Part shown: positions 19,731 to 23,025 of the stretch, one piece after another
How positions within the stretch are numbered: position 1 is the first letter of the stretch
Layout of the letters: the number at the start of each line of letters is the position of its first letter
From: Halorientalis litorea
GTDB taxonomy: Archaea > Halobacteriota > Halobacteria > Halobacteriales > Haloarculaceae
Length of the DNA: 64,000 nt
Direction of reading: 5' to 3'
Assembly: GCF_023028225.1 (NCBI RefSeq)
Contig: NZ_CP095482.1
Coordinates: 310,001-374,000, forward strand
Notes under the pieces: model-generated
What the model was told of the DNA's origin: nothing
The model's database searches: none
The model's input: the letters and a program-made list of their open reading frames with translations, nothing else
Translations under genes and position numbers: made by a program

Positions 19731-20393
19731 GTGCGCTGTATCGCCCACCGCGGTTTCGCCGAGACGTACCCCGAAAACACCGTCGCCGCGGTCCGCGCCG
19801 CAACGGAACGGGTGAACGCCGTCGAAGTGGACGTTCGTCGCTGTGGCTCCGGCGAACTTGTCCTCGCCCACGACGAGGCCGTCGACCGCGTGACGGACGC
19901 CACCGGCCGGGTCGAGGAGTTCACCAGCGACGAACTCGCTTCGCTCGACGTTCTCGGGTCCGGCGAGGGTATCCCGACGCTCTCGGCGGCCCTCGACGCT
20001 GTCGAGTCGGGCGTCGAACTCAACGTCGAACTGAAAGAGGCGGGGCTCGCGGCCGACGCGCTCGCGTCGGCCGACGACGCGGGCGTCGAGGTACTCGTCT
20101 CCTCGTTCGGGCCGTCGGTCCTCCGGGAAGCGCGCGACGCTGGCGCGGAGCGGGTCGCGTACGTCTCGGCTGAAGACGACGAAACCGGGATTTTGAACGT
20201 CGCACGCACCGAGGACTGCACCGCTGTCCACCCACACTGGCAGCTCTGCGTCGACGATTTCGTCGAGCGCGCCCACGACACCGGCCTCAACGTCAACGCG
20301 TGGACGGTCCCGTCGGTTCACGACGCGAGGGCACTCGAATACGTCGGGGTGGACGGCGTCATCGTCGACCGGCCGGAAGTCTGCCCGGAGTGA
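19731..20393 (+). CDS. Glycerophosphodiester phosphodiesterase
   Basis: 220 aa, GTG start. Splits glycerophosphodiesters into glycerol phosphate and an alcohol. GDPD motifs are present: CIAHRGFAETYPENT (His6, Arg7, Glu15), the metal ligands EVDV (Glu32, Asp34), the second histidine in LVLAHDEAVDR (His47), and NVNAWTV near the end. No signal peptide, so cytoplasmic. The length matches compact archaeal members. Confidence 0.92.
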   Translation: MRCIAHRGFAETYPENTVAAVRAATERVNAVEVDVRRCGSGELVLAHDEAVDRVTDATGRVEEFTSDELASLDVLGSGEGIPTLSAALDAVESGVELNVELKEAGLAADALASADDAGVEVLVSSFGPSVLREARDAGAERVAYVSAEDDETGILNVARTEDCTAVHPHWQLCVDDFVERAHDTGLNVNAWTVPSVHDARALEYVGVDGVIVDRPEVCPE

Positions 20394-20414
20394 GCAGTCG
20401 CTCACCGGTTGTAG

Positions 20415-20497
20415 GAAAGGTGGGGGGTGGGGGGATGGTGGGGGTGGCACAGTAAACTGTGCCAGTACAGCCTACTCACGCCTGCAGATTTATAAAC
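20415..20497. repeat. G-rich tract, perfect palindrome and TATA-like element between convergent genes
   Basis: Three elements lie between the ends of the phosphodiesterase and TFB genes. 20415-20447 is a plus-strand run of G blocks (several of 2-6 G) that could form a quadruplex. GGCACAGTAAACTGTGCC (20446-20463) is a perfect 8-bp inverted repeat with a 2-nt loop. TTTATAAA (20489-20496) is itself palindromic and looks like a TATA box on either strand. The hairpin may be a terminator; the TATA element could start a short antisense RNA. Confidence 0.5.
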
Positions 20498-20522
20498 CCG
20501 TCGGCCGCTGGTCGGGGAGCGA

Positions 20523-21494
20523 TTACCGGACGCCGATGGCTTCGATTTGCTCCTGATAGCGGTTACGGATGGTGACTTCGGTGACCTGGGCGACGTCGGC
20601 GACTTCGCGCTGGGTTTTCTTCTCGTTGCAGAGCAGCGAGGCGGCGTAGATGGCGGCGGCGGCGTAGCCGGTGGGTGACTTCCCGGAGAGGAGCCCCTTC
20701 TCGGCCGTCTCGTCGATGATTTCGTTTGCCTTCGACTGCACCTCCTCGCTGAGTTCGAGGTCGGAGGCGAACCGCGGGACGTACTGTTTGGGGTCGACCG
20801 GCTCCATCTTCAGGCTGAGTTCCTGAGCGACGTATCGGTAGGTCCGTCCGATTTCCTTCTGCTCGACCCGGGACACGTCGGAAACCTCCTCCAGACTGCG
20901 CGGAATCCCCTCCTGTCGGCAGGCGGCGTAGAGACAGGAAGTGGCGACGCCCTCGATGGAGCGGCCACGGATGAGGTCCTCGTTCAGCGCGCGGCGGTAG
21001 ATGACCGACGCGACTTCACGGACGGAGCGCGGGACGCCCAGCGCGGAGGCCATGCGGTCGATTTCGCTGAGCGCGAACTGGAGGTTGCGCTCGCCGGCGT
21101 CTTTCGTGCGGATACGCTCCTGCCACTTGCGCAGTCGGTGCATCTGACTTCGCTTCTCCGAGGACAGCGACTGCCCGTAGGCGTCTTTGTCCTTCCAGTC
21201 GATTTGGGTAGTCAGCCCCTTGTCGTGCATCGTCTGGGTGGTGGGCGCGCCCACCCGGGACTTGTTCTGCCGTTCGTTGTGATTGAACGCGCGCCACTCC
21301 GGCCCGCGGTCGATGTTCTCCTCCTCGATTACCAACCCGCAGTCGTCACAGACGATTTCGCCGCCGTCCGCGCTCGATACCAGATTGTCCGACTGGCACT
21401 CTGGACAGTTCCGCACCTCCTCCGTTTCGTCCTCAGTTTCGTTTTCATCCGCTGTCTCGCGCTCGTGTTGCCGTTGGCGACTCGGACGAACCAT
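20523..21494 (-). CDS. tfb: Transcription initiation factor IIB (TFB), copy 1
   Basis: 323 aa. Recruits RNA polymerase to TBP-bound promoters. Zinc ribbon Cys30, Cys33, Cys49, Cys52 (CPEC...CDDC), then the B-finger ([28 protein letters not shown]), then two cyclin repeats (about 125-210 and 220-310) ending with the helix-turn-helix [16 protein letters not shown] that reads the BRE. An acidic 25-residue N-terminal extension (rich in E, D, T) precedes the zinc ribbon. A second TFB is at 44483-45463; haloarchaea usually encode several. Confidence 0.97.
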
Positions 21495-22953: not shown

Positions 22954-22992
22954 CTCGACAACTGAGTGGGTGTTGCCCACGGGAAGGGGGAG

Positions 22993-22998
22993 TTTTAA
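22993..22998 (+). promoter_or_regulatory. TATA element of sucCD
   Basis: TTTTAA lies 28-33 nt upstream of the sucC ATG, fitting a leaderless sucCD transcript. Confidence 0.5.
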
Positions 22999-23025
22999 GC
23001 CGGTACCGGACGCCAGTTTCTCCGG

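Follow-up and report, generated by a model that had tools for sequence, protein, structure and literature searches.

To our knowledge, few archaeal small RNAs (sRNAs) have a known mode of action. Two that have been studied well both come from Haloferax: sRNA132 of Haloferax volcanii, which acts on the 3' untranslated region of its target mRNA and is described as two stems with a 13-nt pyrimidine-rich linker and as reported only from Haloferax (PMC6560208), and s479 of the same species, which pairs with mRNAs via its 3' part and is described as Cas-dependent, with a crRNA-type 5' handle (PMC8155600). In Bacillus, C-rich regions of RoxS and FsrA are reported to bind mRNAs and to lower TCA-cycle enzymes (PMC8216469). 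Also described in archaea are the repetitive quadruplex motifs of Methanomicrobiaceae, in which a single strand carries both G runs and a C track that partly complements them (PMC8044849), and the conserved intergenic haloarchaeal RNAs of halite communities, known from metatranscriptomics (PMC7002113).

Here we describe an element in the window, by which we mean the whole 64-kb stretch of Halorientalis litorea DNA that was analysed, and we conclude that it is probably a minus-strand small RNA gene of a multi-copy haloarchaeal family, whose C-rich tail, presented by a hairpin, would pair with G-rich mRNAs. Like RoxS/RsaE, FsrA and CsfG of the Firmicutes, as described, it is short, has a C-rich unpaired region and keeps a similar plan across members, and, in parallel with the TCA role of RoxS/FsrA, several copies adjoin TCA and glyoxylate genes. 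It differs from them in being archaeal, in its single 5' hairpin at the start, in its BRE/TATA promoter and in its long G-free tail. Rfam includes a RsaE/RoxS model; unlike that family, the element has no match to any Rfam model, and a scan of the window element together with 16 loci matched no family. With sRNA132 it shares a haloarchaeal host, an intergenic position and a pyrimidine-rich single strand; unlike sRNA132 as that source presents it, the element occurs in several copies in many genera, and folds of ten copies gave one stem and a tail. s479 is likewise a haloarchaeal sRNA, and no feature resembling its reported 5' handle or Cas dependence was seen in the element. The Methanomicrobiaceae motifs are, like the element, recurrent, intergenic and G/C-asymmetric, whereas in our element the tail is unpaired with the hairpin and a promoter precedes. 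The family may overlap with the halite-community sRNAs, which were compared by description only. A literature search, with most subscription papers and all supplements beyond its scope, found no description of the element; the RNA family is apparently widespread and unnamed. Small regulatory RNAs are already known, and it is the C-rich hairpin architecture that appears to be new in archaea.

The element lies between the ends of a GDPD gene and a TFIIB-type gene, with the following features.

19731-20393, plus strand: GDPD gene (Pfam PF03009, E 1.1e-30)
20414-20466, minus strand: predicted small RNA, ~53 nt (R1 match E 1.9e-17, R2 match E 2.5e-19, promoter spacing)
20419-20444, minus strand: C-rich tail without G, 26 nt, conserved in relatives
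20419-20444, plus strand: G blocks, the complement of the minus-strand C-rich tail
20445-20464, minus strand: 5' hairpin, TGGCACAG / TTTA / CTGTGCCA (fold, stem conservation, covariation)
20446-20463: 18-mer GGCACAGTAAACTGTGCC, the hairpin core
20489-20496: TTTATAAA, TATA box
20489-20504, minus strand: predicted basal promoter, BRE-like 20497-20504 plus TATA box TTTATAAA 20489-20496
20523-21494, minus strand: TFIIB-type transcription factor gene (Pfam PF00382, PF08271)

The GDPD gene is convergent to the predicted small RNA, whose end falls ~20 nt past the GDPD stop codon, and the TFIIB-type gene is upstream of the small RNA promoter.

A first-pass annotation had singled out three signals here: G blocks as a possible quadruplex, an 18-bp palindrome and a TATA-like TTTATAAA. 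All three are present at the coordinates listed, but the palindrome is not strict and the quadruplex is not canonical. The central AA of the 18-mer is unpaired; with an outer T-A it makes a stem of 8-9 bp with a loop of 4-2 nt. Folding, proposed at the outset as a check, gave a hairpin on either strand at about -13 kcal/mol (z -4.4, with 0 of 200 shuffles as good). The G blocks exist, but the canonical motif (four G3+ runs with N1-7 spacers) has 0 matches in the window on both strands, and for this tract only a two-tier or irregular quadruplex is possible. Taken alone, the hairpin is ordinary for the window and not beyond chance, as the window has 18 hairpins with a stem of at least 8 and a loop of 2-4, and 20 first-order Markov sequences have 10.65 on average. 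TTTATAAA is rare, occurring once in the window and in none of the 20 Markov sequences, and the exact 18-mer occurs a single time in its own genome. As judged from the sequence comparisons, what sets the element above chance is the conservation of the hairpin with the C/G tract, and it is on the minus strand that G blocks, hairpin and TTTATAAA read as one object.

A search with 181 bp recovered the stretch in seven of the eight genus genomes, its own included, the match comprising the palindrome and the G/C tract. Conservation in sister species, on which the first annotation had let its reading depend, was thus found, with hairpin and C/G tract kept in all seven. Each of the six sister loci with a match has GDPD next to the element, the TFIIB-type gene is absent from the fetched DNA of sister loci L003-L008, and genus genome G002 has no copy on the GDPD side. 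Mean pairwise identity among five orthologous copies is 0.91 in the hairpin and first part of the tail, and 0.61 in the BRE/TATA segment; the two outermost segments of the flanks reach 0.33 and 0.30. The stem is invariant in four of the six sister copies and the loop is variable; the exact genus pattern was met three times in public records, always in Halorientalis. The GDPD-side copy of G007 (L015) is mismatched in the stem, lacks a TATA box at the customary spacing, and looks like a decayed copy, a pseudogene of the putative RNA.

Along the minus strand, the TATA box is followed after ~24 nt by the hairpin, then by the C-rich tail and the T run. The window promoter scores 8.7 with a position weight matrix (PWM) and, as copy L013, lies above the 99th background percentile with a PWM trained only on subtype A, defined below. 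The earlier remark that TTTATAAA could serve as a TATA box on either strand agrees with these scores, the plus strand reaching 10.3; despite that plus-strand promoter score, the arrangement conserved in relatives is the minus-strand one. Since the sister copies have ATTTAT at an unchanged distance, the palindromic form of TTTATAAA in the window is incidental. From the TATA box at 20489-20496, the start is expected at about 20466: the RNA would have its 5' end at or within ~4 nt of this position, starting ACUGGCACAG, and its 3' end probably lies close to the T run (TTT, 20416-20418). A 247-codon open frame, antisense to GDPD, crosses the window copy. In the frame that starts at the hairpin GTG, tail frame and length differ among the six genus copies (38 to 109 codons in five others), and the comparison supports the view that the element is not translated. 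The gene anatomy, conservation, direction and lack of coding are thus shown at the level of compared sequences.

To trace the family further, we used three covariance models in turn. Model R1, made from six genus sequences and limited to hairpin and tail, had hits at E<=0.1 in 63 of the 146 genomes of the family; they span 15 of its 22 genera, and some of them are false hits to coding DNA. Two subtypes are distinguished by stem, GCACCC/GGGTGC in subtype A and GGCAC./.GTGCC in subtype B, and in each a TATA-like box precedes the stem by ~30 nt. Model R2, from 10 sequences, was run on a sample of 392 genomes of the order and matched 121 of them at E<=0.001, in 40 of 95 genera, again with some coding false hits included. 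Outside its own family f1, the R2 matches inspected were mostly coding, except in family f7, whose copies have the stem GGCGAT/ATCGCC and a tail and promoter of like kind; we take f1 to be Haloarculaceae and f7 Natrialbaceae. Model R3, built from the f7 copies, matched 82 of 392 genomes (77 f7, 3 f1, 1 f16 and 1 f4), some coding false hits included. Inspection by eye extended to the fetched matches of the R1, R2 and R3 scans. In its own genome the family appears to have two clear copies, that of the window (R2 E 2.5e-19) and one at C1:1145310-1145365 (R2 E 9e-8, R3 E 1.3e-4), and one weak copy at C1:261749-261799 (R2 E 0.51), which has a GATAAT element and an ATTTAT box, yet folds no better than shuffles (z 0.03). 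A pattern search of viral contigs gave 0 matches; blastn against plasmids, with a subtype A copy as query, found none, and its low-complexity filter may have masked the tail.

Alignment A7 comprises 89 copies from 85 source loci, chosen by eye for hairpin and tail with upstream DNA in view; all counts on the 89 copies are inflated by relatedness. Thirteen R1 loci were dropped by eye as coding or implausible (L017, L026, L034, L035, L044, L057, L058, L064, L067, L068, L071, L076 and L077), and the decayed L015 and L069, a near-duplicate of L059, also stayed outside the 85 sources. From a second set of 20 loci, 13 were dropped (L125, L126, L127, L129, L130, L132, L134, L136, L138, L141, L142, L143 and L144), mostly coding and several within one protein, which we take to be aconitase. 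One of these, L138 of family f9 (~2001-2043), has a match that starts GTTTCAATACCCC and resembles a CRISPR-type repeat more than a family member. Alignments A2 and A4 were kept out of the models because MAFFT had misplaced their hairpin gaps.

Across the 89 copies, 99.8% of pair cells are standard. Double changes number 24 against 5.1 in shuffled alignments and affect three of the six pairs; the covariation score is 0.117, against 0.029 shuffled and at most 0.029 in slid controls, in an alignment that was fitted to the model and leans towards structure. These comparisons support a stem kept by compensatory changes. The promoter lay outside every model, all of which covered hairpin and tail only. 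Its pattern, BRE A at -34/-33, TATA T at -30/-29 and WW (A) at -11/-10, agrees with the haloarchaeal promoter elements CGAAA, TTWT and WW given in PMC4983044. When each copy was left out of training in turn, 88 of the 89 passed, with orthologs staying in the training sets; of 3560 random places, 185 passed. Across subtypes at a 1% threshold, training on B recovered 37/43 of A and 9/11 of f7, training on A 26/35 of B and only 3/11 of f7, and training on f7 24/35 of B and 19/43 of A. A T run follows in 88 of 89 copies, compared with 289 of 1780 controls. By a crude ORF caller, 50 of the 89 copies have a divergent gene upstream and a convergent one downstream, and 12 lie between convergent genes. 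The suggestion of a small antisense RNA with an internal promoter is borne out to this extent, that a minus-strand BRE/TATA stands at a fixed distance upstream of the hairpin and recurs in many genera.

The reading that we favour would work as follows. The BRE/TATA promoter would start transcription a few bases at most from the hairpin, and the RNA would consist of a stable hairpin, then ~26 nt of G-free, C-rich single strand, with its end at the T run. The 5' hairpin would protect the RNA and present the C-rich tail, which would pair with G-rich stretches of mRNA. In the mRNA of the convergent gene (here GDPD), the 3' region would be its perfect partner, with imperfect partners elsewhere, and copies with different promoters could feed one shared regulatory circuit. 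Transcription, the RNA ends and base-pairing are inferred. The antisense idea of the first annotation fits, in that the predicted tail would be complementary to the GDPD mRNA around its 3' end. We favour pairing between the tail and G-rich sites because RoxS and FsrA bind through C-rich regions and sRNA132 pairs with a 3' untranslated region. The main rival to tail pairing is a protein platform, in which the tail would be no antisense seed but a landing platform or sponge for a C-binding protein. It would suit the tail's composition, C and A with almost no G, which is conserved more than its exact sequence, as expected of repeated protein sites, and also the search of the own genome for trans complements of the tail, which found only family copies and one coding stretch and no good partner. 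Within the genus, however, the first part of the tail is conserved letter by letter as well, and we regard the protein-binding RNA as unlikely, if the most serious competitor.

Several observations could also suit a DNA element that is never transcribed, be it a repeat of the REP or MITE type, mobile or palindromic, or a site that forms a quadruplex or i-motif: the element is palindromic, has several copies per genome and G/C-asymmetric strands, and repetitive quadruplex-type motifs are described in methanogens (PMC8044849). This seems very improbable: copies per genome are few and keep to the same loci (GDPD, rimI-like) from one species or genus to the next, the spacing of the promoter is fixed, stems change by compensatory exchange, and the window copy lacks the canonical quadruplex motif. 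A bidirectional terminator between convergent genes, which the first-pass annotation had offered as one of its two readings, would account for the position between gene ends in the window and the genus and for a hairpin stable on both strands. A T run directly follows the hairpin on neither strand, however: on the minus strand the 26-nt C-rich tail intervenes, and on the plus strand GTACAGCC comes next. Moreover, a terminator needs no promoter, yet one stands at a fixed distance in 88 of 89 copies, and only 12 of 89 lie between convergent genes, which leaves this explanation slightly less credible still. Least credible of all is that the element serves a downstream gene as its 5' leader, attenuator or small open reading frame. 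A possible sense gene within 150 nt downstream in 10 of 89 copies (crude ORF caller) and the 247-codon frame could speak for this, but 79 of 89 copies are without such a gene, the window frame is antisense to GDPD, and tail frame and length are unconserved in the sisters.

Returning to the small RNA reading with a pairing tail, its neighbours offer a first guess at the circuit. Neighbours were taken as clustered nearest ORFs, from a crude ORF caller that missed GDPD in two loci; Pfam searches with one representative per cluster agree with the names assigned. Divergent neighbours are a GNAT gene (rimI-like) at 38 copies, an HVO_2718-like regulator at 10 and a succinyl-CoA synthetase beta-type protein at four; convergent ones are an aconitase-cluster protein at 16 and a succinate dehydrogenase flavoprotein cluster at four. 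An isocitrate lyase cluster lies downstream of six copies, the genome's own second copy among them, and a BAT/HTH_10 regulator upstream of seven f7 loci. The names 'rimI' and 'succinyl-CoA synthetase' are our assumption for the domain sets found. Because several copies adjoin TCA-cycle and glyoxylate-shunt genes, central carbon flux is our first guess for the circuit; the theme, noticed post hoc and dependent on the crude ORF caller, is a lead. In G002, G001, G003 and G007 (L019, L040, L047 and L042) a copy sits just upstream of a sucC-type gene, divergent to it; the window's gap before sucC (22954-23025, ~70 nt) has no copy. At the sucC-type genes inspected no G-rich leader was seen by eye, which, like the lack of a close trans complement in the own genome, speaks against pairing of the tail.

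In 20 of 35 subtype B copies (e.g. L047, L041, L150 and L025) a GATAAT or GATAAC precedes the TATA box by 20 nt and so occupies -49 to -53 relative to the hairpin G; of 4450 random 40-nt stretches, 25 contained it. This GATAAY is possibly a shared activator site. The window copy is without it. The GATAAY plus TATA pattern has four distinct sites in the own genome, one of them the weak third copy; the others are L190 and L193, which look coding by eye, and L191, and no regulon emerged from this search.

A bolder proposal, which we hold to be doubtful, is that two large haloarchaeal families share a multi-copy set of C-rich hairpin RNAs, a riboregulatory layer that would control the TCA cycle and the glyoxylate shunt in trans and be an independently arisen counterpart of RoxS/FsrA, with GATAAY tying many subtype B copies to one signal. 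The small RNA reading would give a structure-defined RNA family whose anatomy is clear, whose loci are known and whose conservation spans genera, and opens the question of whether archaeal C-rich RNAs meet G-rich mRNA sites as in Firmicutes, for the same metabolism. Models R2 and R3 let annotators mark a gene now left blank.

Some members show further variation in arrangement. Copies in f7 are often tandem, ~320-410 nt apart (~330-365 nt in L133, L135, L137 and L139), and L024 of family f1 has tandem copies 190 nt apart. At L150 and L152 the upstream neighbour, beside the isocitrate-lyase-side copy, carries a transposon-type zinc finger and catalytic motifs and is presumably TnpB-like. In L021 (1501-1560) and L022 (1500-1558) the 3' stem half is repeated (TGTGCCAC and GGTTCCAC) between hairpin and tail, and these short repeats could possibly form alternative hairpins.
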